The notes under the pieces: model-generated | What the model saw: the letters and a program-made list of their open reading frames with translations, nothing else | What the model was told of the DNA's origin: nothing | Databases searched by the model: none | Assembly (NCBI GenBank): GCA_943704525.1 | Contig: CALSCQ010001604.1 | Location: forward strand, 1-33,160 | Direction: 5' to 3' | DNA from: Pigoraptor vietnamica | Taxonomy: Eukaryota > Opisthokonta > Filasterea | DNA length: 33,160 nt | Shown: piece by piece, positions 82 to 25,400 of the stretch | How positions within the stretch are numbered: position 1 is the stretch's first letter | Layout: every line of letters starts with the position of its first letter | Made by a program: the position numbers and the translations under genes

Positions 82-3000
82 CCATCACCGTTGAAGTCTC
101 CCGCGGCAAGTGCAGCGCCAAAGCTCGAGCCGGCCTGCTCGCCCCAGGCGGTCCACGAAGGCGCGCGCGTCGCATCGTTTGCAATGGCGCGAATTTCGAC
201 GCGGCCAAGGAACCCCGTGCGCGAAAAGAGCGACGAGCGGTACGACGCGGCGCCGCTGAGACGAGGGGCGCCAATGACAACGTCTGCGTAACAAGAGGGG
301 CTCGAGGGTCACTATAACCTGCACCGCGTGTGCAAGCGTGTGCATGCATGTGCGACCAGAGAATGCACGAGCCGCGAGCGCACAAATGTAATACCCACCA
401 GAGCCGGTGAAGAAGGAGGCCGTGATGATGGTCTTTCCATACCTGCTCATGGACACGCACGGGTGAGCACAGGCGCACACACGCACACAAGTACACACGC
501 AGTCACACGCCGCGCCATTGCATCACGACACCCACATGCCGTTGTTGGCGATGACGTCGTTTGTCTTGAATGACGAGTCCGACGTCGAGTAACCGGCGCC
601 GTCCACGAGCACGCGCTTGAGGAACGTGAAGGCGGGAGAGTACGTCTCGAACATGCCCCGCGCAACGCCGGCGTAGCGATTGGGCGATCCAATGACGATG
701 TTGCCGTTCGCGTCCACGGCGACGCTCTGGCCGGTCGCGTCGAACGAGTACGAAGCGTCGGCGTCCGTCGCGTCCAGATCAACGGGCACCGTCGACCCGA
801 CGTTGTCAAAGGCAAATACCTTGCCGTCCTCAGAGGACTGGCACGGCGACTGCAGTAGGGGGGCAAGGGGTTAGTGAGCAAGCTCGCGCACACACAGCCA
901 AATCGTGGCTCATACATGCGACCCTGAGATGAATTGCGAGGGAAGCGGGCGAGAGACTCACGTCAAAGCTGTACGTGCCCTGCGCGAGGCCCGCCGTGTA
1001 CCCGTTCGGGTAGAGCTGCAGCACGCGCCGCGTTGTCCCCGTGATCGAAATCCACTCGGTGCCCCTTTTGGATCCGCCGGGAAGCGCGGGGTACGACGAC
1101 TGGCACGAGTACATGTCCTCGCTGCAAATGCCCAGAAAGTTGATAATGCCCGTGCAGCGACGGCCACCGGAGCACTTGCCGTCCTTCGACCCGTCGGACT
1201 CTCCCGGGCAGTAGTTCGTGTTGTCGCTGAAGGGACCGTCGCGGTAGCAGTCAACCGACTTGCTCCACGGCGCGTCGAGATCGCAGAAGTGCCCAGAGTA
1301 CTTCAGGGTGACACCGAGATAGTTGAGCGTGTCCGTGTTGCACGGCGACGGCGTGCGCGCGAGGTAGTACGTCCCGTAGTAGTTGGTGGAGCAGCACGCC
1401 TGTAGGGGGAAGGTGTCGACGTAGCGCGTCGAACCGCAGCCGGCGCACAGGCGCGAGCTCCCGACAGAGTCCAGGCCGTACGAGATGGTCAAGGTATTTG
1501 CAAAGCCGCTCGCCGTTATCGTCGGGACGCCATTGTCCGTTACTCTCTGGGACGACGTCGGGTAGCGGTCGGCGCCGCTGTCCGCCGCGGGGTTAAAGTA
1601 GCCGACGAGGCGGTTGCGGTTCGTGAGCGAGAACTTCATTGGGTCCGTGCCCACGCAGTCCGAGGGGGTCGCGGCGCGGCTGCAGTCGGCGTCGTCGAGA
1701 TAGAGGTCAATGTCGGCATTGTTATTGTTCGGGTCGGCGATGAGCTGGATGTAGACGTTCTTGCGGTAGCGCGGGATGGTCGCGGCGACGAAGAACTCGC
1801 CCTGCTGCATCTGTCGGTTGAACTGGAGGTTGCGCGCGGCCGAGCACGCCGAGCCCCACTGGATTTCCGTGTCGGCCGCTGGGGTAAGAGGAAGAAAGAG
1901 AGGAGAGGGGGGGGGGGGGGATCAGACCAGGGATGCTTAAATAATCTCCCGTCGAGAAAGGCGATAGAATGCACCCCGACGACAGGAAGCAGTGGCGGCA
2001 AAAGCGAGGTCCACCCACACGACGCCTGGACCGGCGCATACACGGGGACGGACGAGCGGCCCGATGTGCACCCGGGCGCGGTGGCTGCGAACCCCGTGCG
2101 CGTGCCTGACCCGGTGCCGCCGGCGACCGAGGCACCAAAGAAGCTGCGGTACTTGCATTGCGCGGGCTGCGAGGAGGTGCGTGCGCGCACGAAAGAGGGG
2201 CGAGTGAGGCCACCCGCAACAAAACCACGCAATTCATCAGAGGACAAAGCCCAACTACAGGCGCGTGTGCGTGCGTAAATGGCACTTCTAAAAAAACCAG
2301 ACAAGTCCCCACGCACCGGCGCGACGGGACGGCGGTTGCCCGGGGTGGCCGACTGGAAGACGTACACGCGGCCCTGCTGCTCCGTGCTCGTGTCGTAGTT
2401 GTTCGAAGGGCTCTCGGTCGTGGGCGTGTAGTACGGCGCACCGACGAAGAGATGCCTTGAGGGGGAGGCGACGAGTGAGAGGGTGCTCAAGACAGCACGT
2501 GCCGTCACTCGGGAGACAGCCGACAGAAATGGCATCGCAGTGAAAGGACAGCGCAGAACACGACCAGTCACATCCATTCGAAGGACAGCGCAGAACACGA
2601 CCAGTCACATCCATTCGAAGGACAGCGCAGAACACGACCAGTCACATCCATTCGAAGGACAACGCAGAACACGACCAGTCACATCCATTCGAAGGACAGC
2701 GCAGAACACGACCAGTCACATCCATTCGAAGGACAACGCAGAATGCGCCAAATGCAATGCCATGCACCGCAGCAAGCAGTGCCACAGGTGCGTTGGCACA
2801 GTAACCGCCTAACCCGCGACAGCACGTCCATCCACGACAAGCCGCTGTGTGATTCCATCCCTCGTCCCCACAACAGACGCAAAGGACAAACACGACATCC
2901 CGCGTGCAGCGCAAGCACCCACTTGAGGGACGGGAGGTACGACATGGAGTGTCCAAAGCGCTCCGCAACATTCTCCGTGGCGCCTGTGCCCGTGAAGACG

Positions 3001-3137
3001 AGATTGGGGTTGATGGTGGCGTCCAGCACATCGCCCGACACGACGCCGTTCTGCGTGCGGTAAATGCCCCGCGCGGTCCCTGCGAGCGCGATGAGGGCGA
3101 CGAGCGCCCACACGCGCGCCACACGACGCGGTGCCAT
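82..3137 (-). CDS. ITGA: Integrin alpha-like FG-GAP protein (3' end missing)
   Basis: Likely the alpha chain of an integrin adhesion receptor, secreted through the ER and, if family-typical, anchored in the plasma membrane. Exons, 5' to 3': 3137-2923, 2455-2317, 2166-1975, 1858-962, 849-527, 442-399, 283-82; phases agree throughout (about 670 residues visible). It opens with a signal peptide (MAPRR, then a hydrophobic run ending near AGTARG). FG-GAP propeller motifs are visible: FGHSMSY with HLFVGAP in exons 1-2, DANGNIVIGSP in exon 5, DVVIGAP across exons 6-7, and the cation loop DFNGDG at the last visible exon. Exon 4 interrupts these with a PPC-like beta segment and a cysteine-rich stretch. 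The exon 3/4 junction is the least sure: acceptor 1859/1858 keeps phase, whereas a stronger-looking acceptor at 1879 does not. The last donor at 81 leads out of the window, so the C-terminal stalk, membrane helix and tail cannot be seen. A secreted FG-GAP protein other than integrin alpha remains possible. Confidence 0.8.
2544..2745. repeat. 37-bp tandem minisatellite, about 5.4 copies
   Basis: Copies start at 2544, 2581, 2618, 2655, 2692 and a partial copy at 2729, exactly 37 bp apart and almost identical. Each unit contains CAGAACACGACCAG and CATCCATTCGAA. The array lies wholly in the first intron of the integrin-alpha-like gene (2456-2922). All six frames cross it in various open stretches, but none looks like protein. 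Confidence 0.95.
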
Positions 3138-3231
3138 GAAAGTGCGTGCGGCCGAAAGGGGAACGCAGATGGAATGGCCCGTGTGGCGTTTGTGAGGGGG
3201 GGGAGGGAAAAAATAAGCAGACAGCAGAGGC

Positions 3232-3374
3232 GGTGTGTGTGTGCGCGTGTGTCTCTGTGTGTGCGTGCGTGCGTGCGTGCGTGTGTGCGTGCGTGTGTGC
3301 GTGCGTGTGTGTCTCTGTGTGTGCGTGCGTGTGTGCGTGCGTGCGTGTGTGTCTCTCTGTGTGTGTGCGTATGT
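3232..3374. repeat. GTGT/GTGC microsatellite
   Basis: Imperfect tract of GTGT, GTGC and GTCTCT units on the alpha side of the divergent integrin promoter. The open frames across it on both strands are low-complexity artefacts. Confidence 0.9.
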
Positions 3375-3559
3375 GGGCAATGGCTTTGTTTACCTGGACA
3401 ATTTCAAAATTTCGAGGCTAATAAAAAAAAATAAATATTTTCCATAGACATTTCATAGTAATTTTCGATTGGTCTGCGGAGTGGCCACGGCGGTTTCACT
3501 CCGCTGCGGCTTTGTGCGCGCGTGCATCCTGACGCAGGCACTCCATCGCTCCTCAGTCG

Positions 3560-3583
3560 CCACACACACACACACACACACAC

Positions 3584-3614
<31 letters not shown>

Positions 3615-3644
3615 TCTCTCTCTCTCTCGCGTCGCACACACACG
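3560..3644. repeat. (CA)n(TC)n microsatellite
   Basis: Blocks of CA repeats alternate with TC repeats about 130 bp upstream of the integrin beta start codon, probably in its promoter or 5' untranslated region. Confidence 0.9.
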
Positions 3645-3772
3645 TTCTGCTGCATTACGTGCATCTTTATCCTTCGCGTTCCCTTTCTTCTTTACGACAC
3701 ATTGGCACACACAGCGCACACTCGCGCACCACAACACACACATCCGCACACGCAGTTGCACTCGACGTGGGG

Positions 3773-4208
3773 ATGGCGCGGCTGCTGTTCATCGCGCTCC
3801 TCGCCCTGGCTGCGTTGGCGGCGCCCGTGTTGGCCATTGGTGAGTTCTCTATGCGCGGGACTTTACTGACGACAGCTTTGCGGTGTATCTGACGGATTGC
3901 CCCTGTGGTGCGTACGTGCAGACGCGTGCTCGTCCGCAACAACCTTCGAAACATGCGTGGGCGAGCGCGACGCGAGCGGGCGCTTCTGTGGCTGGTGCCT
4001 TGCGTCGACGTCTGACGTTGCGCAGTGCGTGACGGAGCAGCAGAACGCGGCGTCGCCGACGCTGTGTGCGGCGGGCTTTATCGGCTATGTCATTCGCGGC
4101 GAGGACAACAAGCTGTACACGACGAGCACGGTCTATGCGACGACCACGCGCTCGCAGCCGTGGGAGGTGGAGCAGCAGGAGATCAAGGCAGTGCTCAGGC
4201 CAGGTGGG

Positions 4209-4275
<67 letters not shown>

Positions 4276-4307
4276 CTGAGTGTTGTATATGTGCTGCTTG
4301 TGTGTGT

Positions 4308-4346
<39 letters not shown>

Positions 4347-7300
4347 CTGAGTGTTGTATATGTGCTGCTTGTGTGTGTGTGTGTCTCTGTGTGTGTGTGT
4401 GGGTGCGTGCGTGTGTGTGTGTGTGTGCATATACATGCACTTAGTTCAAGCTGTGGTCGTTTGTGTCTGCTGTCCATAGTTTGCCTTCGCACCGGCCGTC
4501 AGACTGCCAGCCGTATTTCCACCCGCGCCGTAGTGGCTCACACTGTCTGCGTTGTCCCAGGCGAGCCCATCTCGTTCACCATTCGCGTCAGCCCGATCAA
4601 GTGCAAGAACCTCGACTTTTACTACCTCATGGACGTCACGGGCTCCATGCGCGACGACAAGGACTCTCTCACGCGCCTCGCTTCGAGCCTCGCGACCGCC
4701 GTGCGCAACCTCTGCTCGACGGGGTGCTCGGGTACGACGCCGACGTCGTGCGCGCGCATTGGTTTCGGCACGTTTGTCGACAAGCCCATCAGTCCCATCG
4801 GGTACTGGCAGAGCCTCGCCTCCGAGGACGACAAGGTCGCGTACGGCGACGTCCCCGGCATGGCCTTCTTCCGCTCGCAGACGTCGGCGCCGGCGTTCAA
4901 CTACGTCTTCAAGAACCAGCTGTCGCTGACGGACGTCGGGGACGGCTCGACGTTCCAGAGTGCCGTGTCCGCGGCGCAGATCGCCGAGAACATTGACTAC
5001 CCGGAGGCCGCGCTCGAGGCGATGCTGCAGGCTGCCACGTGCTCGAACGTCGTCGGGTGGCGCCCCGCCGCGCGCCGCATGATGTTCCTCGCCACGGACG
5101 CCGACCCGCACGTGGCCGGCGACGGGACGAAGGCGGGGCTCTACGCCAAGAACTCTGGCACGTGCTACGTGCCTGCGGGGGTGACGGACAAGACGGCGGT
5201 GCAGGATGCCATCAACCGCGCGTCGATTGCGCAGGATTACCCCTCTGTCGGGCAGGTCGCGCAGTCGCTGCTGCTGAACAACATCTACCCGATCTTCGCG
5301 TACCCCCGCACCAAGATCCCCAACACGCGCGACAACCTCGAGAACATCAACGACGTCGTCTACCCGTCGATCCAGGCCGCCATGGGCTTTGGGTCCACCG
5401 TCCAGCTCACGGACAACAGCGACAACGTCGTCAACGTCGTGCAGGCCGCCTACAGCAGCATTCTCGTGGACGTGGGCATCCGCGCCGTGTCGGACGATGG
5501 CACGCCGTACCTCTCCGTCTCATCGAACCCCCCGAAGGCCACGCTGAGCTTCAACAACCCGTCGACGTACACTGTCACCGCGCGTTACGACGGCGGCTCG
5601 CAGGCGCCCTCGCCGCGCAAGACGTTTACGCTGACGCCCGTTGGCTACGACAGTGCGAGCCTCGTGGTTAAGACGACTCCCGAGTACCAGTTTTGCAACG
5701 ATACGGTCAAGGGACAGTCGCCGTTTGCCAACTTCTTCTCGTTCAACTGCAACGGCCGCGGCAAGAACGTGTGCGGGCGGTGCGTGTGCGACGCGGGCTT
5801 CTCTGGCCCGAAGTGTGAGTGCGACACGCGCCGCGACAACTGCGTCGTGGACGGCCTTGAGTGCTCTGGCCACGGGACCTGCAACTGCAACAAGTGCTCG
5901 TGCGCACCGGACAGCTTTTACTCGTACACGGGCAACCTGTGCGAGTGCGCGCAGATCCCATGCACCAACAACTGCAACGGAAACGGCGTTTGCACGTGCG
6001 GCGGCGTCTGCAAGTGCAACTCCGGGTTCTCGGGCGTCGCCTGCGAGTGCCGCGACGGGCTCGTGGCGTGCGCGAAGGACGCGGACTGCGTGCACGGCGC
6101 GTGCATCCAGGGCGACTGCGGCCAGAACCGCTGCATCTGCGAAATTGGCTACGACACGGACGCGGCGACGGGCAAGTGCGCGGTGGAGATCAAGACGTGC
6201 CCGCTCGGCGACAACGGCCTCGAGTGCAGCGGGAACGGGCGCTGCGTGAACGGCGCGTGCGTGTGCAACCCCGGATTCAACACGACGGCGACGTACAAGG
6301 CGTGCGGCTGCAACCAGACGGCGTGCGCGGGGAAGTCGTGCAGCGGCCACGGCACGTGCAACTGCGGCGTCTGCGACTGCGACGCGAACTACAAGTCGGA
6401 CCTCGCCGTCCCCGAGCTGTACGACTGCAGCTGCGCGCGCGATGCGTGCCCGCAGGACTGCAACGGCCACGGCAACTGCACATGCGGCGTGTGCAAGTGC
6501 GACGCGGGCTACAAGGGCACCGCCTGCGAGACGTACTGCCCGCGCACCGGCAAGACGTGCGCGGAGCTCGCGTGCATCCCCGGCGAGATCACGGACGCGA
6601 AGGGCTTCCTGCTCCGCAACGAGTGCGACGAGGAGTGCGGCGTGTGCCGCTGCGTCGTCGGCGTCGGCGAGAACTGCTGCAGCGACGACTGCCCCAGCGT
6701 CACGGTGGACACGTGCAGCGGCCACGGCGAGTGCAAGTGCGGCAAGTGCGAGTGCGCCCCCGGGTGGTCGTCGCCGGCGACTGGCTGCGGCTGCAACGCC
6801 ACGCTCGCATGCCCCTCGGCTGCGGGAGAGTCGGACCCGTGTGGTGCGAGCGCCGGCCGCGGCCGCTGCGTGCACGGCGAATTTAACGAGTTTGGCGAAA
6901 TTTTGTGCGGCGCGTGCGTGTGCAACGCGGGCTGGTCGGGTCCCTCGTGCAACTGCTCGACGGCGGCGTGCCCGACGTCGGACGAGATTGGCAACCCGCA
7001 GTGTGGCGCGAAGGGCGACTGCGTATGCGGAAGCTGCGTTTGCCGCGATGGGTTCACGCCGAACGCGCAGGGCGTGTGTCCCGAGCTGTGCTCTGCGACG
7101 AACCAGCGGCGGTGCGTGGCGATGGGCGAGACGACGCCATGCAGCGGCCACGGCAACTGCACGTGCGGCGTGTGCCGCTGCGAGTGGCCGTGGGCGGGCG
7201 AGTATTGCGAGGTGTGCACAGACGAGAGCTGCTTCGACTGCAGCGCGCGCGTGTCGTGCATGGACTGCACGCAGCGGCAGTTCTGTGCGTGGTGCGGCAA

Positions 7301-7853
7301 GGCGGGTCCCCTGGGAACCCCGACGGAGACCAAGTGCATCAAGCGCATCGCCGATGCCAACGCCACGTGCACGTACAACCACACGGTCGTCACAATGTGC
7401 AGCGGTGGGTGTGCACAGTACTTCTGCGCTGCTGTATTGCGGTGTGCCCAGAACTTCTGCGCGTCTTCCCTGTCTCTATTTTGCGCTAATGTTGATGTGG
7501 CGTGGTACAGTGGGCTCGGGCAGTTCCGGCGGCATCACGACGACGACGACCATTGTGGCGGGGGCGGTGTCTGGCGGCGTGGTGGCTGCTGCGGGCGTCG
7601 CCGGTCTCGTGGGCTTCAAGATGTACCAGCGCCACCTCGACAAGAAGGAGTGGGAGAGGTTCGAGAGGGAGCGCCAGGTGAGCATGCTGTCCGTTTGTGG
7701 CCGATGCTGTTTGCGTTCCCGGTGGCGACCTCGCATCTCACGCTGTGACTGTCTCAGAAATCCGAGTGGAAGTCCGACTCGAACCCGCTGTACCAGTCGT
7801 CCGTGCGCGAGACAGAGAACCCGCTCTACGTCGGCCGCACTGGCCAGACATGA
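3773..7853 (+). CDS. ITGB: Integrin beta subunit
   Basis: Beta chain of a transmembrane adhesion receptor. Exons 3773-3839, 3922-4203, 4561-7404, 7511-7677 and 7758-7853 give 1151 residues. Domains in order: signal peptide (1-20); PSI domain (about 23-75, ending in CGWC and paired cysteines); hybrid strand with the family signature LRPG; betaI domain from about 131 with MIDAS DVTGS (D141, T143, S145), ADMIDAS D148-D149, IGFGTFVDKPISPIG, a metal-site segment ENIDYPEAA and VGWRPAARR...TDADPHVAGDG; hybrid return; a stalk of about twelve CxCxxG EGF-like modules; a second PSI-like cysteine cluster next to the membrane; transmembrane helix about 1079-1100; and a 51-residue tail. The tail carries DKKEWERFERE, matching the animal DRREFAKFEKE segment, and two NPLY motifs (1129-1132, 1141-1144) for talin- and kindlin-type PTB domains. 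The stalk is much longer than the four modules of animal chains. The partner gene lies head to head upstream. Confidence 0.97.
4213..4436. repeat. (TG)n microsatellite in integrin beta intron 2
   Basis: Long TG tracts with two near-identical copies of a short unit containing GGCTGAGTGTTGTATATGTG, at about 4273-4301 and 4345-4370. It fills most of the 357-bp intron 4204-4560, which separates the PSI/hybrid start from the betaI domain. The intron happens to be open in one frame, so it can be mistaken for coding sequence. Confidence 0.92.
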
Positions 7854-8235
7854 TGAGGTCGTCTGCTTTGCTGCGCCCGCTCTCCCGCTGCGTTTGTTTT
7901 TTCACAAGTGCCTGTTCCTGTGACGTCATTAAATGGAGTGACGCATGTCCGGATGGGTTGAATCTGCACTCTGATTGGTCGGCGTGCACGTCATTGTGTG
8001 CCTGGACGGCCCATAAAAGGAAATGATAAAGATAATATTGCCAAATTTGGCCCTTGGGAAACGGCACGAGGTGAAACAAGTCCGACCTTCCCGAGCCTTT
8101 TGTTCTAAGTCATCGAACGCACGCACGCACGCACACACGAGCGACTTTGCTTCTGCGCGTACTGCCCTCTCTCTTTGTCGCGCTGGTAGAGACTCCTCTG
8201 TTGCCCTCGCATGAGGCCGTCGGCCAGCCGGTGAC
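7854..8235. promoter_or_regulatory. Intergenic region between integrin beta and 5-phosphatase, with CRE-like palindrome
   Basis: About 380 bp with no recognisable gene. It should hold the integrin beta 3' untranslated region and the promoter of the next gene. Visible motifs are the perfect palindrome TGACGTCA at 7921-7928 (the CRE consensus bound by bZIP factors), a reverse CCAAT (ATTGG, 7974-7978) and CCATAAAAGG at 8011-8020, which could be a TATA or CArG-like element or a 3'-end signal. Their use is inferred. Confidence 0.35.
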
Positions 8236-11200
8236 ATGGGCGTTGAGCGCACCTTTGTGCCCATCAGCGACGGAGATGTCGGCGACGCAGGAGGGCCGCT
8301 GCGGTGCGTTGTGAGCGTGCGTGGCCCCGTCGACTTGCGACCATGTTCATGCGCCGATTGGCGTGTATGTTGCATTGCGTCTTGCACTGAACGCGTGCGA
8401 GAGAATTTTTGTCAACGCTGTAAACTTATCGGCGTTGTTGCAGTATTGCGCTTGCGTCGTGGAACGTGAACTACGCGCGGCCGTCTGAGGCGGACGCACG
8501 CGAGTGGCTTGGCGTCGGCAAGCATGCCGCTGCGGACGTTTACGCCGTCGGGTGCGTTTTCGCCCTAATTGCTGATGGTCGAGCAACTCCATGCATGCGA
8601 CACTCCCATCAAACCCGTGTGTTTAGTTCTGCTTCGCGCGTCTTTCACGTGCGTTCGCGGCATTGCCCGTTTGTTGAGCGACGGAAGGCGCAGGCTGCAG
8701 GAATTCGACGGCAGCGTGCGCTCGTTTGTGCACCCCGACGGGACACTCCAGGCCGAGTGGGTCGCCGCCATCGAAAAAGGTGCCTTACAGCGGCCTCCTC
8801 CTGTCACTCAGCTGGCGTACATGCGCGAAGGCGTCATCTGTAGACCCACGAAGAACCTCAGCTTAAAGTAGATGCATGGACTCGCTGCTCGCACCCCAAC
8901 ACGCATACACACACGCGCACGTCGCGGCAACACACATACATACATTTTTACTTCCGTACGCTCATTATGAACTCGCACCCGAACACGCATACACACACAC
9001 CCGCGCGTCGCGGACACACACAAACACACACACACACACATTGACCTTTGCACTCACCTAGCCGTCCTTTGCTTTTGCTTGCCCCTTTTTCACTCAGCCA
9101 TTGCGTCGTTTGGCGGCGACCACGTGCTGCTGGCGGAGGTGCGGCTGGCGGGGATGCTCTTTGTTGTGTATGCGACGGGTCGCGTAGCCGGGGAGGCGCG
9201 CAACGTCAGCGCATCGTACGTCGGGTGCGGCCTTCGCGTGATGCCCTACTACCAGCTGGGCAATAAGGTGGGAGCACACACGCAATCCCTAGGCTCCATC
9301 ACACGTAATGCGCTTCTCAGTTGCACACCTGTCTCCAATGCACGCAAGAAGCGCACGCACAGGGAGAGCAATTGCCTCGGCGATGCACACGCGCACGTTA
9401 CGCAGCAGTTGGCTCCAGCGGACCCATAACACTGCGTGTAACTGTACTTCAGGGAGGCCTTGCCGTGCGCTTCGAGTACCGCGGCAAGTCCGTGTGCATA
9501 CTGAGCTGCCACCTCGCCGCGCACTCGCACTACTGCCAGCGCCGCAACCGCGACTTCCACAGGGTACGTGTGTGTGATGTTGTGCGGGGCGTAGTGATCA
9601 ACGTCCTGTTTGGGCGAGTGACTGTTGCGTTTGCGCGCCCTGCGTGCCTGTCCATCTCTTTCACAACTCGGAGCGACATTTGCATGGCATGACGATTCGG
9701 TGCGTTGCCGCAACCAATACTTTGCCCGTTCTCCCAGATTGTGCGCCGGCTTCGGCTGGGCGAAAGCCCTCTCTTCGCCGAGGCACGCCCCGTCCTCGAC
9801 CACGACTGCGTGTTTGTGATGGGCGATCTCAACTACCGCATATGCCTTCCGGGCGAAGAGGCGCGCCGCCTCGCGCACGCAGGGGACCTCGACGGCCTTG
9901 CGGCGTGTGACCAGCTGAGGCAAGTCGCAGTACGAATGTGATCGTGTTTGGGAATGGTTCATATCCGTTATGCGGTCGTCAGGCCCATTGTGTGCGTGTG
10001 TGCTTGCGTATGTTGCGCGCGCGCGCGTGTGTGTTTGCGTGTGCGTGCGTGTGTGTGCAGACACAATGCGCTCAGTGCTGTGAAATGCCATCGCTGCCGC
10101 CACGTGCACGCAACAGGCTGCAGCAACAGTACGGCCGGTCGTTTGTGGGGTTCGATGAGGCGCCGCTCTCTTTTCCGCCCACCTACAAGTACGACGTTGG
10201 CTCGCCAGCCTTTGACTCAAGGTGCGCCCTTCGCATAGCCCGCTTCTGTTTCCCTCCTATGTCTTGCGCTGTGCGGTGGTGTTGCATGCATTGCGCCGGT
10301 GCCTGACAACCGGTCGGCTCCGTCGGACTGCAGCGACAAGGCGCGTGGGCCTGCCTGGTGCGACCGCATCCTCTGGAAAGCCACCGGCGCGCGCGTTCGC
10401 CCGCTCGCCTACGACAGCCGACCCTCCGTCATCGCCAGCGACCACCGCGTGAGTATGGCTGCTGCACACGTATCTGCAAGTGTCACGTGGTGCGTGAAGT
10501 CCGTAATTGAAATTGGCGCTTTTTCTGCACAGCCCGTAATCGGCGTGTATGAGGTGCACCTGGACGCCACCGAGTCTCCCCATTCGTCACCGGCCTCGTC
10601 CCCGCGCTCGAATGGCAAGGGCGTCCCTTTGACCCAGTCAAACGGACATATCGGCACATCGCCGCACGTGCGACCCCGCGCACTCCCCGTGAGGACAGCG
10701 CTTGCCGCGGTGGACGCACTGATGCGGGCGCTCGTCGTGTCGTCCGCGCTGGTTGCCCTCTTCCTTGGAACGCCGCGGCCCGCCGAGCCCCTGCCGTCGT
10801 CGCCGGTGCGTGTGACGGGCGTCCTCGGCGCCGGCGGCGGCGTGCCATGGGCCGGGCGGCAGCCGGGCACGCTGTGGGCGCTGCTACGGGGCCTTCTCTC
10901 GACAGAGGGCATGGGACACCGGCGCCTCTTTCCGCGCACGGCCGCCGACCTGAGCGCGAACAGACTGCTTGCGCTCATGTTCCTCGCGGCACCCCTCCTC
11001 TTCGAGGCCATCGTGGGCGTGGCCTACGGTGCGTTGCCCCCTAATTCGCGACCGTGTCACCCCATGCCACGTGCATTTTCCCCTGTTGCCTCAAACGCAA
11101 GGCATCTGCTGACCACCCACCGTTCCCCATTGCCAGGTCTTTCGTACTGGGTGCGCGTCGTCGTGTCCCTCATCGTACTCGCCCCGGCCACGCGCGGCGC

Positions 11201-11345
11201 CACGCTTGCACTCGTGCCCGTGTGGGTGCTCCTGACATGGCCTGCCGTCGCCGCCGTTGCGCTCATCTGCGTGCGGGACAGCCTGCGCGCCCGGAGAAGC
11301 CTCGCTGCCGCAGTGTACCCCTCGCTCGGAATGCACAGAGCGTGA
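8236..11345 (+). CDS. Inositol-polyphosphate 5-phosphatase with C-terminal membrane segments
   Basis: Predicted Mg-dependent enzyme removing the 5-phosphate from inositol phosphates or phosphoinositides. Exons 8236-8303, 8444-8551, 8694-8779, 9098-9267, 9453-9563, 9738-9923, 10124-10221, 10334-10448, 10533-11028 and 11137-11345 give 548 residues. The full set of family motifs is in order: ASWNVNY, VGLQEF, RLAGMLFVVY, GNKGGLAVRF, SCHLAAH with RRNRDF, MGDLNYR (G210-R215), FPPTYKYD, PAWCDRILW (282-290) and SDHR (311-314). The exon 6/7 junction was chosen because it restores DQLRQQQYGRSF; a longer exon 7 starting near 10060 is possible. After the catalytic domain come a Ser/Pro-rich linker and about four hydrophobic segments (roughly 376-393, 458-477, 484-497, 501-524), so the enzyme is probably tail-anchored in a membrane. 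No SH2, SAC, RhoGAP or CAAX element is visible. ATAAAAAATTA at 11366 may be the 3'-end signal. Confidence 0.92.
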
Positions 11346-11581
11346 CCTTCCTCTCCCGTGTCCCCATAAAAAATTAAGCCAATCGGACAGTCCAGACAAT
11401 CGGAAACGAATGGAATGCACTCCACTTGTGTGTGTCTGTCGAGGGCGGCTGTCGTCAGAAGTTATCGTGCAACAGAGCCTCAACATCAATTCAACACTTG
11501 TACTCTCGCAAGCTCTTCCGCAGTTCCCAACTGAACTAGTCCGCAGCGAATCTCTCGCAGCCGTTTGAGCCCCCCTTCATC

Positions 11582-11956
11582 ATGGACAACAGCGACCAGG
11601 GCGAGGGATGGAACATTCCGGGCAAGGCGACGCTCACGGCCCTCGCTGCCTCCGTGCCGGGCCTCGTGGGCGCCTTCGTGCCACACCAGCCCACGATTGT
11701 CAAGGACGACGCCGAAATTAACAGCCGTCCAGGTGAGTGCGCACACGGTGTGGCGCCCTGCACAGTGGCGTGGGCACGTGACCGTCCCGACTTCGCAGAT
11801 GTGCACCCTGAGGACGCGATGGGAGGGAGCAACCTGCCAGTGGGCGAGCTTGGCCTGGCGCCACTAGGGCCTCTCGGGCACATCAATGAGACGGGCGTGA
11901 GCGGCAACCTCGCGCGCGCCGCGAGCAAGGACTCGGACCAAGCGCAGCAACAGTGA
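11582..11956 (+). CDS. Small hypothetical protein, two exons
   Basis: Not recognised. The model has exons 11582-11732 and 11799-11956 (102 residues), with a canonical GTGAGT donor and CAG acceptor. The 66-bp intron is a multiple of three and has no in-frame stop, so retention would give a 124-residue version. The protein starts MDNSDQGEGWNIPG, has a mildly hydrophobic Ala/Leu/Val stretch (about residues 17-32) too short and weak to call a membrane helix, then an acidic patch VKDDAEINSRPDVHPEDA and a Gly/Leu-rich tail ending QAQQQ. There is no signal peptide and no known motif. It is convergent with the CNK gene, whose stop lies 94 bp away. A real short gene is likely from codon use and splice sites, but function is unknown. 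Confidence 0.55.
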   Translation: MDNSDQGEGWNIPGKATLTALAASVPGLVGAFVPHQPTIVKDDAEINSRPGECAHGVAPCTVAWARDRPDFADVHPEDAMGGSNLPVGELGLAPLGPLGHINETGVSGNLARAASKDSDQAQQQ

Positions 11957-12050
11957 CTAACCATGTGGGACTAAAAAAAGACTGCCCGCACTTCACTCCG
12001 TGCCACTTCATTGCCTCCACGCAGCGCGCGCGGCTCGGCACTGCCGCGGC

Positions 12051-13430
12051 TCACCAGTCCATGAGGAACTTGAAGTCGGCCTTCTTCTTGTTCTCAATGT
12101 CGTTGTCGATGAGCATGTCCCGCGTGATCGTCGGCGCCTTGAGAATCGCGTCCAGGCGCGCAAGGGCCGTCGTCTTGTCGCGGAGGGTCGCGCGGAGGTC
12201 CTCGATCTTGCTCTGCAGCTCCGCCTTCCGCGTGTCGGAAACGCCGGGGTCGTCGAGAGAGAGCGAGTCCGTCGACTCGCTGCGCGTCATGTGGACCGTG
12301 CGGAGGTGCTGCGTCGTCCACGGGATCGTTGTGGTTAGCATCACATGCACGCACTCGCACAAAAGAGCTCACTCGCACAGAGCCCTAGATCGTTGTGCCC
12401 GCATCACGCGCGCGCACGCCCATGCACTCGCACATCGCCCAGTGTCAGCAGCCCAGTGCCAGCAGCCCCACCTCGAGGCGCTTGTCGATCATTGACGGCT
12501 GCCGGTGCATCGTCGCGTCCTTGCCCTGCGCCTTGACCGACGCCGCGCGGTGCGGCTCCTTCACCGACACCTGACGGCTCAGCGACGGCGACCCGGGCTC
12601 CTTCAGCGACGCCTGCCGCTCGAGTTCCTTCGCCGCCTGCTTCTGCGACCACTCAATCTCGCGCTGGAGCTTCTCGAGCTCGCGGTGCTGCCGCTTGCTG
12701 TCGTCACGCGACAACCTGAATTCGTCGTCGGAATCGCTGTCAAGCGCGTCGCTGTCGGCGTCGGCGTCGACATCCTCGCTCGTGGCCTCCTTTTCCTTCG
12801 CCTCCATCTCTCTCGCGTCCTTCTCTCTCGCGTCCTTCTCTTTGGCCTCCTTCTCTTTCGCCTCGCGTTCCTTCGCCTCCCTCTCCTTCGTCTCCTTCTC
12901 CTTCGCCCCTTTCTCCTTCTCCTTCTCCTTCGCGTGCTTGTCTTTGCCGTCCGTCTTCCGCACAGACGGCCCCCGCGCCCACGAGAACAGTCCCTCCTTC
13001 TCCCCCTCCTTCCCTTCCTTGCTCGATCGCGCAGTCTCGGGCGTCTTCGCTTCTCCGGCCGCGCGCGAGGGCGTCGGGGACGTGGGCACACTCTTGTCGT
13101 CATGGTTGAACGTCACGTTGTGGCCCTCTTTCGGCGGCGCCTCTGCGCAACACCCAGCGTCAGTGACAAAGCAGCACGTGTTTGCCACGCGCGTGTGTGA
13201 AAACGGCATCCACCTTCGTCCGACGCGGAGTCGTAGTCGACGATTTGCGGCGGCCGATACTTGGCGAGGCGAGCCTTTGCCTCCTCGGCTGCACGGGAGA
13301 AGAGAAGGTTGGGTCAAAAAGTTGCTGAGGCAAACACACAGACGGCACTGGACCTGCGGCCACAGCAACTCACCGGTCTCGTTGGGATCAAACTGGATAG
13401 CAGCGAGGCTCATTGCGTTCATCCACCTGC

Positions 13431-13551: not shown

Positions 13552-16516
13552 ATGTGTGGACGGCGTAGAATGGGATGGGCGGCCGATACTGTGACATTTG
13601 ACGTCGCACTGCCACTCACCGCGTCATATCCTGCTTCGTCTCTGCACTGAAGTAGTACGTGCGAGTGCCCGCGTGCGTGGCGCGGAACGACCACTTGCGG
13701 CCCTTGTCGGAGACGGGCTGGATGATGAAGCTGGGCAGCGTGATGATGCCCAGCGCACGCGAGTCCTGCAAACAGAACGCTCGTGAGCACGCACGGAACA
13801 GGAAGCAAGGAGCGCCGAACAAGTGCGCATTGCCGCAAAGGAATGCCATCAGAGTGTCTGGCAGACTCCTAGCGATCAATACAGCGTCAGGGTGAGTGAC
13901 CCACAAAGGACGTCTTGAAGTAGTAGAGCGTCGAGTCCTTGAGCACAAACCACCGCTTGCGCCAGTTCTTCGGCGTCAGGCCAGAGCCGCCCAGCTTGTA
14001 CAGAAACCCCTTGATCGTCGCGTCCCTTTGCACGCAAACAGGAAGAGTGGCATGAGACATCAATCCACAAGCAAGACTGCACGCATACCTCAAGCGCATA
14101 AGCGCACACATTGACAGATCCGAACGCGCCACAACTCACTTGAGCTCAACGCACAGGACGGGGACGTCGTGCGGCATCGCCGATGCGGGCAAGCTCCGGT
14201 TGAGCTTGGGACTTTGCGGCGGCGACCGCTTCTTCGTGGTCGTGTGACGGGGCAGCGGGTTCGTGCCTGTCATGTATGGCTTGTCCTCATGCTTCGCCTT
14301 GTCGTCGCCCTCCGCGCCCGGCGCCGCTGCGCTGCTCTGCTCGTGCGCGGCCTGCGCAGTCGCGGGCGGATTTTGCGGGGAATGGTGGGCCGGCGCTTGT
14401 GCCGACGGCGCCGCTTGGGCTGTTGAAGCGGCCCGTTGATGCGCAGGTACGTGGGCTTGTGAGTGCTGCCCGGATGCGGCGGGAGCGACGGCGGCCTGGG
14501 CTGCAGCTGCAGCAGGCGCGTGCTGCACTACTGCGGCGGGCGCGGGAGTGACGGGCTGGACTGCCGGTGCAGCGGCCGCGTGCTGCGCGGGGGCGGTTGT
14601 GACGGGAGCTGTCTCCGCGGCGGCTTGCGGCGGCGTCGATGCAGGCACCGCAGGACGGTGCGCGGGTGCGCGGTGGGCGGCCGCGCCAATGGCCGCGGCG
14701 GCGGGCGAGTGCGACACAATGATGCGCTCCTTCTTCTTGGGCTGCGGCTCCGAGTACGGCGCCGGCTGTTGTTGCGGTGCGCTTGCGGCCTCCTGCGGCT
14801 GCGAGTACACGGCCTGGGGGGCTGCGGCGGACGGCTGCGGGACGGAGTATATCGCCTGGCCCGCAGACTCGGCAGGCCGCGGCCCCGGCATCGAATAGAT
14901 GGCGGGCTGCGCGGGCGCGGGCTCGGCTGCAGGTGCGTGCGTGGCTGCTGATGGCGCGGAAGGGGTGGGTGCGGGCGCGGGCGCAGACTCAGGCGAATCC
15001 TGCGAGTGGTCCGCATGACGCACGACACGCCCGTCGATGCTCTTCACTGCGGACGACAGGCCTTCTCGCTGCTCCGCAGACACCTCAGCGCCCTCCTGAT
15101 CGCGGTCAATCTCGATGGTGGTGGGCATCGGGGAAATGCTCACGCGTCCTGCGCGTGATCGTTTTAGGGCGTGTTGTCATATGAACGTGGTGAATGCGTG
15201 CGTTGCTTCTGCAAGCGACCAAGTAACGAGATACCCACGGACTTCGCCGGGGCTCTCGGCGCCCAGCCGCGGCGACTTGAGCGCACTTCGCGGGCTCTTG
15301 GGGGACTGTTTGCATGGATTGTGTCAATCCAACAGCACCATCCACACACACATTCACATGCGCACGCACTCACAGCAGGCGCTGCCGATGTGCTCGTATT
15401 GATCGCGAGCGGCGCGGGTTTCCAATCCTTGGGCTTCCCCTCGGCCGCGCTTCCTTCAGCCGAAGCGACGGTGACCGACGGCGCAGCAGCGGGCGTGGAC
15501 GATGGCGCGGCAGCGGGCGTGGACGACGGCGCTGCAGCGGGGGCAGCGGCTTGGGGCGCAGTGGCGGCAGCGGCGGATGCAGAAGGGGCAGCAGTGGATG
15601 CAGTGGGAGGCGTGGGCGCGGCCGCCGTGGGGCCACCCGGGGGGTTCGGCACGCGCAGCTTGAAGACCACGCAGTCGCCGAGCGAGGGCAGCAGCGCCGC
15701 AAAGTCCTGCGCCGTCCACCCGATGATCGAGCGCCCCGACACCTCCACAATCTCGTCGCCGGAGGCGAGCTGACCCGAGCGCGCGGCGACGCCCCCCGGG
15801 AGAATGCGGTTGACGAGGAGCCCCCTGCTGGCCTCGTGGGGCTTCTTGATGGTGCACCCAAAGCCCTCCCCCTGGCCCTTCTGCAGGCGCACGAGACGGA
15901 AGCCGCGCGCGTCCCCGTCCGCCTCAAACTCGCCCTGCTCGTTCAGGCAGAGGATTTGCGCCATCGTAGACACGAGCTGCGGCATGAGGTTGAGCGGCGT
16001 TTCCGCGGGCGCCCCGCGGTCCACCAGGCTCCGCACGGCCCCCACCAGCTGCCGCCCCTGCTCCATCAGGTGCAGGCGCTGCCCGGCATCCTCCCCCGTG
16101 ATCGGGTACCGGTCCGCCCAGTCGATCGCAACCCGCGCAATGGCCGCAATGCGCAGGCACCGCGCGCGCGCGCCCTCCGCGTCTTTGGCGGCAATCGCGT
16201 CCGCCGCCTCCTTCTGATACTGATTCGCAGCGACGACGAGCGGCTTCAACTCAAGCGCCCGCCCACTCCCGCCGCCATCGAAACCCGCACGCAGAGACGC
16301 GACGGCCTTGAGTATGGCGAGTTGTTCGGCGGCTGCGGCGACGCCGAGCGACTGCAGATCGCTGGCCGTGAGGCGCAGCAGCTGTTCACCGGCCACGCGC
16401 GCGGCGAGGAATGCGGGCGCATGCTGGTCGATGCCTGCGCCGAGCCCCCGCAGCCAGTCGGCGACCTCATACTCCGTCCAGTACACGACGGCCTTGTCGC
16501 GAAGGAGGGCGGCCAT
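12051..16516 (-). CDS. CNK: CNK-type scaffold: SAM-CRIC-PDZ-PH protein
   Basis: Homologue of connector enhancer of KSR, a scaffold that in animals links Ras, Raf and Rho signalling at membranes. Exons, 5' to 3': 16516-15370, 15148-14140, 14025-13905, 13765-13620, 13426-13374, 13288-13214, 13142-12472, 12308-12051 (1159 residues, all phases agree). Domains: SAM (about 11-76, VADWLRGLG...[11 protein letters not shown]), CRIC-like helical region (84-190), PDZ (206-290, [28 protein letters not shown]), Ala/Pro linker, PH (about 720-818, [25 protein letters not shown], final Trp at 809), a Lys/Glu-rich coiled coil in exon 7, and a C-terminal helix in exon 8. The SAM-CRIC-PDZ-PH order is diagnostic of CNK. 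Four YSxP motifs (Y467, Y483, Y497, Y514) sit between PDZ and PH. Intron 1 uses the GTGCGT donor at 15369, needed for phase, rather than GTGAGT at 15373. The CRIC call is the weakest part. Confidence 0.82.
13435..13554. repeat. (TG)n/(TGAG)n microsatellite in a CNK intron
   Basis: A TG tract with an internal GTGAGT-rich block fills most of the intron between the two last PH-domain exons (13427-13619). Confidence 0.9.
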
Positions 16517-22400: not shown

Positions 22401-25400
22401 CGCCGACCGCCAACTCGAAGTGGCCGAGCGCTGCTACGCCGCCCTGGGCGACATCTCACGCGCGCGCTACCTGCGCAATGTGAACCGTATTGCGGAGAAG
22501 GCGGCGGCCGAGGGCCACGGGGACGGACGCGACCACTACCTCGTGCGCGCTCGCCTTGCCGTGCTTGACAAGAAGTTCAAGGTGGCCGAGGGGATCTTCC
22601 TCGAGAACGCCGGCGTGGAGGAAGCGATGGAGATGTACCAGGAGCTGCACCGGTGGGACGACTCGATCGCGATTGCGGAGGCCAAGGGGCACCCCGAGCT
22701 GGAGAACCTGCGCCGCAACTACATGCAGTGGCTGCTGGACACGGGCCAGGAGGAGAAGGCCGGCGAGATGAAGGTGCGTGGCGGGTGTCGACTGCAGCGT
22801 TTGTTTCGAGCTCTGTGTTTGGGCGGTTTGCGCTGCTTGCGATCGTGTACTCACCCGTTCGCCACTGTGTGTGTTGTTTGTGCCTGCAGGAGCGCGAGAA
22901 GGATTACGCCGCTGCGATCAACCTCTACATGCGCGCCGGTCTTCCCGCGCGCGCTGCGCAGGTGGTCGCCCAGCACGAGGGCCTTGTGGGCAAGTCGGAC
23001 CTCCTCGAGCGGATTGCGGGCGCGCTGCTGAAGGCCGGGCTGTACGAGCGCGCGGGCGAGCTCTTTGAGAAGCTGCGCATGAACCCGCGCGCGCTCGAGT
23101 GCTACCGCAAGGGCCACGCGTACCGGCGGGCTGTTGACCTGTCGCGCGCTGCGTTCCCCACGGAAGTGGTGAAGCTCGAGGAGGAGTGGGGCGACTACCT
23201 CGTGCGGCAGAAGCAGATGGACTCTGCGATCAACCACTACATCGAGGCCGGGTGCGCCGTCAAGGCGATCGAGGCGGCCATCCAGTCGCGCCAGTGGAAC
23301 AAGGCCGTGCAGATTGTCGAGATGCAGGACGCGAACACGGCGCAAAAGTACTACCGCGACATTGCCGCGCACTTTGAGTCGGTCGGCGACTTTGACATTG
23401 CGGAGCGCTACTACGTGCGCTGCGGGCAGCCGATGGAGGCGATCCGCATGCACACGCGCGCGAACCGCTGGGAGGCCGCGCACAAGCTCGCGCTGACGTG
23501 CATGAAGCCGCAGCAGGTGGTGGACCTTTGCATCAACCAGGCGCAGGAGATGGAGGCGCAGGGCAAGTTCCGGGAGGCCGAGCGCCTCTACATCACGGTC
23601 GAGGAGCCCGACCTGGCGATCAACATGTACAAGAAGGCGCGGCAGTACGACGAGATGATCCGGCTGGTGACGGCGTACCACAAGAACCTGCTCGTCGAGA
23701 CGCACCTCCACCTCGCGAAGGAGCTCGAGACGGAGGGCAACTACCGGCTCGCGGAGCAGCACTACTGCGCGGGCAAGGACTGGAAGAGCGCGGTGAACAT
23801 GTACCGCGCCAACGACATGTGGGACGACGCCTACCGCGTCGCGAAGAAGGAGGGCGGCGCCAACCTCGCGAAGCAGGTCGCGTTCCTGTGGGCCAAGAGC
23901 CTCGGCGGGGACTCTGCGATCAAGCTGCTCACGAAGTTTGGTCTGCTGGAGCAGGCGATCGACTACGCGGCGGACAACGGCGCCTTCGATTTTGCGTTTG
24001 ACCTCTGCCGGTCGGCGATGAAGGGCCGGCTGCCGGACATCCATCTGAAGCACGCCATGTTCCTCGAGGACGAGGGCAACTTCCGCGAGGCCGAGGAGGA
24101 GTTCATCCGCGCGGGAAAGCCCCGCGAGGCCGTGCTCATGTACGTGCACAACCAGGACTGGCAGAGCGCCCAGCGCGTCGCCGAGAGCTACGACCCGTCG
24201 AGCGTGCTGGACGTGCTCGTCGGCCAGGCGAAGGCCGCCCTCGAGCGCAAGGAGTTTGGGCGCGCGGAGACGCTGCTGCTCCGCGCGCAGAAGCTGGAGG
24301 TTGCCATTGCGTTCTACAAGGAGCACGGGCTGTGGACGGACGCCCTGCGCGTCGCAAAGGAGTACATGCCGCACAAGCTGCCCGAGCTCCACGACGAGTA
24401 TGACCGGCACCTCTCGGAGACGGCGTCTGGTTCGGCGGGTCGCGACGCGCTCGTAGCACCCGCGCGCACGTGGGAGGCGAATGGCGAGTACTCGCGCGCG
24501 ATTGACGCGTACCTGAAGCTCGGCGCGGAGCACACGGCCGACATGGACTTCCTTGAGGGCGCGTGGGAGAAGGCAGTCGAACTCGCGATGAAGTTTGTGC
24601 CGGACCGCGCCGTGGACGTTGTCGCTACTGTCTCAGGGCGCCTAATCCAGATCAAGCGCTTCGAGGCGGTGAGTGATCGCGGGCCGTGCCTTGTGCCAGA
24701 CAGCGGGGATGCTTCTTGTTTCGGGCTGGGAATAATGAGTAGTGTTGTGCTGTAGTGGATTGCCGCTCACCGCCTGTTCCCCCGCAGGCCGCCGAACTGT
24801 ACGTGGGCGTGGAGATGTTCAAGGAGGCCATCGACTCGTACATCCGGGGCAACTGCTGGGACAAGGCGCGGTCGTGCGCGTCGGACTATGCGCCGCAGTT
24901 CCGCGACTACGTGGAGACGGCCTACGTGAAACACCTCAAGAGCGCCGGGCATGCGGAGAAGCTCGTCGACGTGGACGTCATTGCCGGCCTTGACATGTTT
25001 GTGCAGCGCGGCGAGTGGAACAAGTGCATCGAGAAGGCGCAGGCTCAGGTGGGCGCCTGAGAGTGCCTTGCCTGTGCGTGCGTTGTGTGTATCACGTGCT
25101 GACAAAGTGGCGCGCTGCAGGGACCCGAGGTGCTCGGCAAGTACGTTGCGCTGTACGCGGCGCACCTGATCAAGGAGAAGAACGTGGAGACGGCGCTCTC
25201 CCTCTTCAACAAGTACGGCGCGCCCGCGAACCCGCAGAACTTCAACATCTACAAGCGCCTCGCCGTCGAGGTCCTCTCCCGCGCGGGCTTCCGCGGCGAT
25301 GGCTACGGCTTTGGCGTCCTCCGCGAACTCAAGGCAGTCCTGCACCGCATCGTGAGTGCGCCAGCGTGTGCGTCTTGAAGAATGTGGAATTGCCGCTGTC

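Follow-up and report, generated by a model that had tools for sequence, protein, structure and literature searches.

Analysis of the window, a contig of 33,160 bases that was taken in its entirety (C661, from an assembly of 32.5 Mb in 1395 contigs), revealed an integrin alpha gene (alpha1) and an integrin beta gene (beta1) that lie head to head and are read outward from a single region of ~0.6 kb. The gene models show that both genes are, by sequence, integrins and that this divergent arrangement occurs three times in the genome. Taken together, we assign a probability of roughly 0.7 to the reading that this is an integrin locus of a unicellular holozoan in which the linkage of the subunit genes is kept by matched transcription. 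Exons were picked by hand from the sequence, with GT-AG boundaries in all 10 introns of the alpha1 (window part) and beta1 models, and the intergenic region between the two ATG codons spans positions 3138-3772, which is exactly the 635 bp between start codons that an earlier note on this DNA had given.

The beta1 gene (3773-7853, plus strand) is complete and, in a hand-built splice model, forms an open frame of 1151 amino acids in five exons (3773-3839, 3922-4203, 4561-7404, 7511-7677, and 7758-7853). Its VWA (I-like) domain (4611-5465, plus strand) matches the Pfam family Integrin_beta (PF00362) with E-values of 2.1e-51 and 4.2e-51 (174.5 bits for the latter), and contains the metal ion-dependent adhesion site (MIDAS) in the form DVTGSM. 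The canonical form of this motif is DxSxS; in beta1, as in the paralog beta2 described below, Thr replaces the usual first Ser. Pfam also matched EGF_2 in nine stretches of the protein. The membrane helix and tail, GFKMYQRHLDKKEWERF...NPLYQSS...NPLYVGR (7511-7853, plus strand), were located by Pfam and hydropathy, with a hydropathy peak at residue 1079, the next one after that of the signal peptide; NPLY occurs twice in the tail, which matches Integrin_b_cyt (PF08725) with an E-value of 5.3e-15. Having a VWA domain, a MIDAS motif for which metal binding is predicted, EGF repeats, a helix, and an NPxY tail, beta1 is, judged from its sequence, a canonical integrin beta, in agreement with the complete, rightward-transcribed integrin beta of the earlier note. 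The second intron of beta1 carries an imperfect TG tract of 215 bp (4213-4427).

The window holds the 5′ part of alpha1 (82-3137, minus strand; splice model with open frame), which comprises seven exons (3137-2923, 2455-2317, 2166-2019, 1878-962, 849-536, 442-399, and 283-82) and encodes 659 amino acids up to the contig end. A signal peptide region, MAPRRVARVWALVALIALAGTARG (3066-3137, minus strand), was recognized by eye and coincides with an N-terminal hydropathy peak. The FG-GAP calcium-loop motif GDFNGDG is interrupted by the exon/intron boundary nearest the contig end (82-122, minus strand), and the contig ends inside the alpha1 intron in a poly-C tract (1-32) and a CT repeat (32-57). Taken alone, the window piece is weak: a partial FG-GAP match lies at residues 647-659, and the family scores 17.6 bits (E-value 0.0037) against a cut-off of 22.1. 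A search of the genome with the window alpha led to a second alpha (alpha2) on contig C928, the right end of which carries, on the minus strand, the 3′ half of an alpha gene without a 5′ half of its own. These 3′ exons (C928:38484-34309, minus strand) continue the window piece in phase, and the joined protein of 1959 amino acids matches FG-GAP above the cut-off (E-value 2.2e-15, 56.6 bits) and has a C-terminal membrane helix followed by KLGFFKRKPKPPNLNDYGSGHDFSDT, a KLGFFKRK tail. The leftward-transcribed FG-GAP protein with signal peptide of the earlier note thus gains a firm FG-GAP assignment once the C928 part is added, and the membrane helix and GFFKR-like tail for which that note had looked to the missing 3′ end are present there.

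About seven propeller repeats were counted by eye in alpha1, Pfam giving one or two FG-GAP stretches, and a long leg region is present as well. A profile built from full-length alpha1 and alpha2 matched 62 distinct PDB sequences at an E-value of 0.001 or less (best 5.4e-17), the best 60 of the 62 all being named integrin alpha, and its alignment with integrin alpha propellers of solved structure extends over about 180 positions. Once the C928 part is included, the FG-GAP propeller and the membrane helix with GFFKR make alpha1 an integrin alpha, an assignment that we regard as firm at the level of sequence. The first intron of alpha1 also contains a 37-bp tandem repeat (5.4 copies at 98%, window 2544-2743).

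Two further alpha/beta pairs were modeled elsewhere in the genome. On C928, alpha2 (28443-21304, minus strand) and beta2 (29000-33497, plus strand) lie head to head, their starts being 556 bp apart, and alpha2 has an FG-GAP match with an E-value of 1.4e-16 and the tail KLGFFKRK; the first intron of beta2 (C928:29058-29192) apparently has a GC-AG boundary (GCAAGT). On C829, beta3 (5624-1111, minus strand) and alpha3 (6555-12259, plus strand) are likewise head to head, their starts separated by 930 bp. The MIDAS of beta3 is degenerate (DRTAAM) and its tail is extended and charged, while alpha3 departs from the GFFKR motif, having LGLLHRR where alpha1 and alpha2 have GFFKR, and ends in a tail of ~535 residues with YEDVGP, YEDIGP, and YEEVGP motifs and a proline-rich end.

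The fourth beta and the fourth alpha found in the genome were not part of such pairs. In beta4 (C373:~7204-11928; Pfam on exons) EGF_2 was matched in eight stretches of one exon and Integrin_b_cyt in another (4.3e-16), the VWA piece scored below its cut-off (23.1 vs. 24.8 bits), the MIDAS, interrupted by an intron, reads DFSGSM by eye, and the tail is canonical (NPLY...NPIY). The alpha-like gene alpha4 (C1022:~14.7-21.3 kb) has FG-GAP repeats, a hemopexin repeat (6.8e-6), and a membrane helix recognized by eye, with no GFFKR in the one exon read of a partial gene model. The genome was searched ignoring introns, so that unpaired subunits with short exons may have escaped. Several other FG-GAP candidates were dropped: the loci on C584 and C547 are GPLD1-like and that on C244 resembles a ciliary propeller protein (all named by eye), and C1027, C819, and C1014 showed by eye no integrin features in the parts viewed. 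Three of the four betas and three of the four alphas thus sit in divergent pairs, and since three of the four beta loci have an alpha as divergent neighbor, the pairing is more than would be expected by chance.

The paired genes differ considerably in sequence. Identities amount to 45-46% between beta1 and beta2, and to 28-29% and 25% between beta3 and beta1 or beta2, respectively, in the best alignments; the identity of alpha1 with alpha2 is 31-36%, and local stretches of alpha3 align with these two at 26-33% identity. All four beta1 introns match four of the seven beta2 introns in place and phase, and at least three intron positions are common to alpha3 and alpha1 and at least two to beta3 and beta1 (matched by eye). 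The common intron positions and phases show that the alpha genes go back to one ancestral gene and the beta genes likewise to one of their own, which fits a duplication, at least twice, of an alpha/beta pair that was already linked. In a tree of 10 betas, beta1, beta2, and beta3 together with the Pigoraptor beta discussed below were split from the six others (five animal sequences and one from a metagenome; beta4 and Capsaspora were left out) by a branch with support of 99/97. In this tree beta3 forms a long branch. The order among beta1, beta2, and the Pigoraptor beta is not settled in it, and neither, therefore, is the age of the beta1/beta2 split. The metagenome beta (P0130; 851 amino acids, with a cytoplasmic domain) is also a long branch, and its identity with beta1 across the VWA region is 31%.

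The region between alpha1 and beta1 contains a single AT-rich dip (3371-3485, minimum of 18% GC per 60 bp in the GC profile), and one such dip is present in each of the three alpha/beta intergenic regions; the region between beta4 and its divergent neighbor has a weaker one, with a minimum of 43% GC (fixed 60-bp steps, a single control promoter). It is plausible that one promoter drives both alpha1 and beta1. Under our preferred reading, a linked pair would have been duplicated as a unit to yield the three divergent pairs, the single AT-rich core would fire in both directions to provide matched alpha and beta transcripts, and this matched transcription would in turn allow the linkage to persist. 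On the basis of established integrin biology, the alpha and beta encoded by neighboring genes would then pair as a heterodimer in which the propeller and the MIDAS of beta bind substrate or prey and the NPLY tail of beta couples to talin.

A number of observations weigh against this reading. Dips below 38% GC occur elsewhere as well, with three in the 33-kb window (the intergenic one included), two in an 18-kb stretch of C928, and eight in a 20-kb stretch of C829. No 9- or 10-mer is common to all three intergenic regions, and the one common 8-mer, with 0.24 expected, is not clearly beyond chance, so a shared promoter motif was dropped as a candidate. The divergent neighbor of beta4 is no alpha; it is an SF3B3-like gene (named by eye; Pfam RSE1/DDB1/CPSF1 first propeller, 4.1e-82), and as the two start 590 bp apart, the 635-bp spacing in the window is no evidence for a joint promoter. 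Unpaired too is alpha4; its divergent neighbor is an open frame that extends over 1670 codons or more of the sequence examined, and the first 499 residues of this neighbor have no Pfam match. Since alpha4 and beta4 lie on different contigs beside other genes, an integrin gene in this genome can do without linkage. Finally, the tandem order proposed below presupposes that C928 and C661 join across a repeat of unsized length.

Alternatively, the pairs would be linked only through unbroken segmental duplication of an ancestral alpha/beta pair, and the intergenic region would have no joint regulatory role, an explanation that accounts for the lack of a motif clearly beyond chance, for the already unlinked beta4 and alpha4, and for a similar spacing of 590 bp beside a gene that is no integrin. 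What speaks against duplication alone is that the linkage has outlived deep divergence, as beta identities have fallen to 25-46% and alpha identities to 26-36%, and that the head-to-head pairs of Capsaspora are reported to be co-expressed (PMC5560861). We consider duplication alone to be the strongest competitor of linkage kept by matched transcription, and an unlikely one on balance.

Far less probable is that the 3′ half on C928 is part of another gene, in which case the alpha of the window may have a different end and the apparent tandem array would be a product of how the assembly was read. The halves do lie on separate contigs with a low-complexity gap between them; against this, the frame continues across the poly-C intron through a standard FG-GAP motif (GDFNGDG|RLDLAVGAP), and alpha2 has an intron of identical position and phase at the break, nine of nine introns being in agreement. 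The right end of C928 is a run of seven C and the first 32 bases of the window are all C, the orphan halves are complementary, and a genome search with the 3′ part of alpha2 returned one further alpha 3′ half, at C928:34330-37800, with no other orphan alpha 3′ half found. The join is thus supported by the intron match with alpha2, by the C-tracts at both contig ends, and by the single orphan 3′ half. From it we infer the order alpha2< >beta2 <alpha1 >beta1 over ~25 kb plus an unsized gap.

That the leftward gene encodes an FG-GAP protein which is no integrin and happens to lie beside an integrin beta would agree with the below-cut-off FG-GAP score of the window piece, with the GPLD1-like FG-GAP genes (named by eye) in the genome, and with a protein search with alpha2 (7998 candidates scored) in which, among the best 120 of 411 matches, most of them unnamed, the informatively named ones were prokaryotic FG-GAP or “integrin alpha” proteins, with no relative for which gene order was at hand; this scarcely credible reading was rejected on the KLGFFKRK tail, the membrane helix, and the PDB profile, the listed matches of which are all integrin alpha, and it is further opposed by the signal peptide, the approximately seven repeats seen by eye, the long leg, and the similar alpha2 that adjoins beta2.

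The alpha proteins also have features of their own. Exon 4 of alpha1 encodes an insertion of ~306 residues in the second propeller repeat (962-1878, minus strand; by eye, from the alignment with alpha2), and the alpha2 counterpart of ~336 residues is likewise contained in a single exon (L015:5880-6889, minus strand), the two insertions being 41% identical. Pfam, VWA included, gave no match for the alpha1 insertion, and for that of alpha2 a PLAT match under its cut-off (0.012), so that neither a family nor a known fold was assigned. The insertion site is near the position of the vertebrate alphaI domain, which is located between propeller repeats two and three (PMC4237329). The Pfam leg families of animal integrin alpha (thigh and calf) had no match at an E-value of 0.1 in complete alpha1 and alpha2, nor in alpha3 analyzed without most of its tail. 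DUF11 (PF01345) was matched above its cut-off in the leg region of alpha2 (residues 1271-1380, 2.5e-7) and just below it in alpha3 (residues 617-712), and was not found by Pfam in alpha1.

Outside the integrin genes, the window encodes an IFT122-type TPR protein (22929-24755, plus strand; 79.6 bits, above the cut-off), which suggests a flagellate stage, and a protein with SAM and PDZ domains (15164-16516, minus strand; 2.4e-12 and 1.7e-10).

The genome holds one match to Runt (3.1e-52), T-box matches on six contigs (up to 1.1e-64), and one talin match. Runt and T-box transcription factors mark holozoans. In two protein searches with beta, the first of which scored the 7999 candidates sharing the most words, the closest beta among the matches listed came from EukProt “Opistho-2” (55 and 54% identity), and no Capsaspora protein was among the matches listed in either. 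The Opistho-2 clone is Pigoraptor chileana (PMC7147346). Its beta (EukProt P0001) shares 55% identity with beta1 across 838 aligned positions and is thus nearer to beta1 than to beta2 (43%); it differs in being 850 amino acids long and lacking the C-terminal part. Given Runt, T-box, talin, and Pigoraptor as the source of the nearest beta, the host is most likely a unicellular holozoan and probably a filasterean near Pigoraptor, itself a filasterean, and not the apusomonad or breviate that the earlier note had brought into consideration.

These results extend a known head-to-head arrangement to a further holozoan genome. New here are three pairs at differing divergence, a probable tandem array, a third pair that has diverged strongly, and one alpha and one beta that have no linked partner; linked and unlinked subunits within one genome constitute natural controls for co-expression and partner choice. 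We raise, as a doubtful proposition, that the alpha/beta pair might be the heritable unit by which the integrins of unicellular holozoans evolve, in which linked cassettes duplicate (giving in this genome a tandem array and a dispersed third pair that has diverged strongly), a shared promoter matches partners, and gene order encodes pairing. If this were true, the third pair, in which the MIDAS is degenerate and both subunits have long cytoplasmic tails, would represent a receptor whose subunits diverged together toward a new specificity.

Compared with animal integrins, the proteins described here share the beta VWA domain with MIDAS, EGF repeats, membrane helix, and NPxY tail, as well as the alpha propeller, membrane helix, and GFFKR tail; they differ in the DVTGSM form of the MIDAS, in an alpha of ~1950 amino acids with a propeller insertion of ~306 residues, and in a leg region without the animal leg families in Pfam. 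Adjacent integrin subunit genes are not known to be the rule in animals. Among unicellular holozoans, head-to-head alpha/beta pairs were published in 2017, four in Capsaspora owczarzaki and one in Corallochytrium (Grau-Bove et al., PMC5560861), and the arrangement, which the earlier note had put forward as an undescribed system, was accordingly already in print; no further report of such pairs was recognized among the matches listed in the literature searched. Co-regulation of the Capsaspora adhesome follows two submodules, which are linked to particular alpha and beta paralogs (PMC4739763), and Capsaspora integrin beta tails recruit talin via an NPXY/F motif (PMC6450878). The present genome resembles both species in having divergent alpha and beta genes side by side, and Capsaspora in having several such pairs, but differs from them in combining three linked pairs with one unlinked alpha and one unlinked beta. 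Two of its pairs are inferred to lie in tandem, whereas the relevant section of PMC5560861 does not state whether the Capsaspora pairs are clustered. The head-to-head arrangement reported here is a further example of the published kind.

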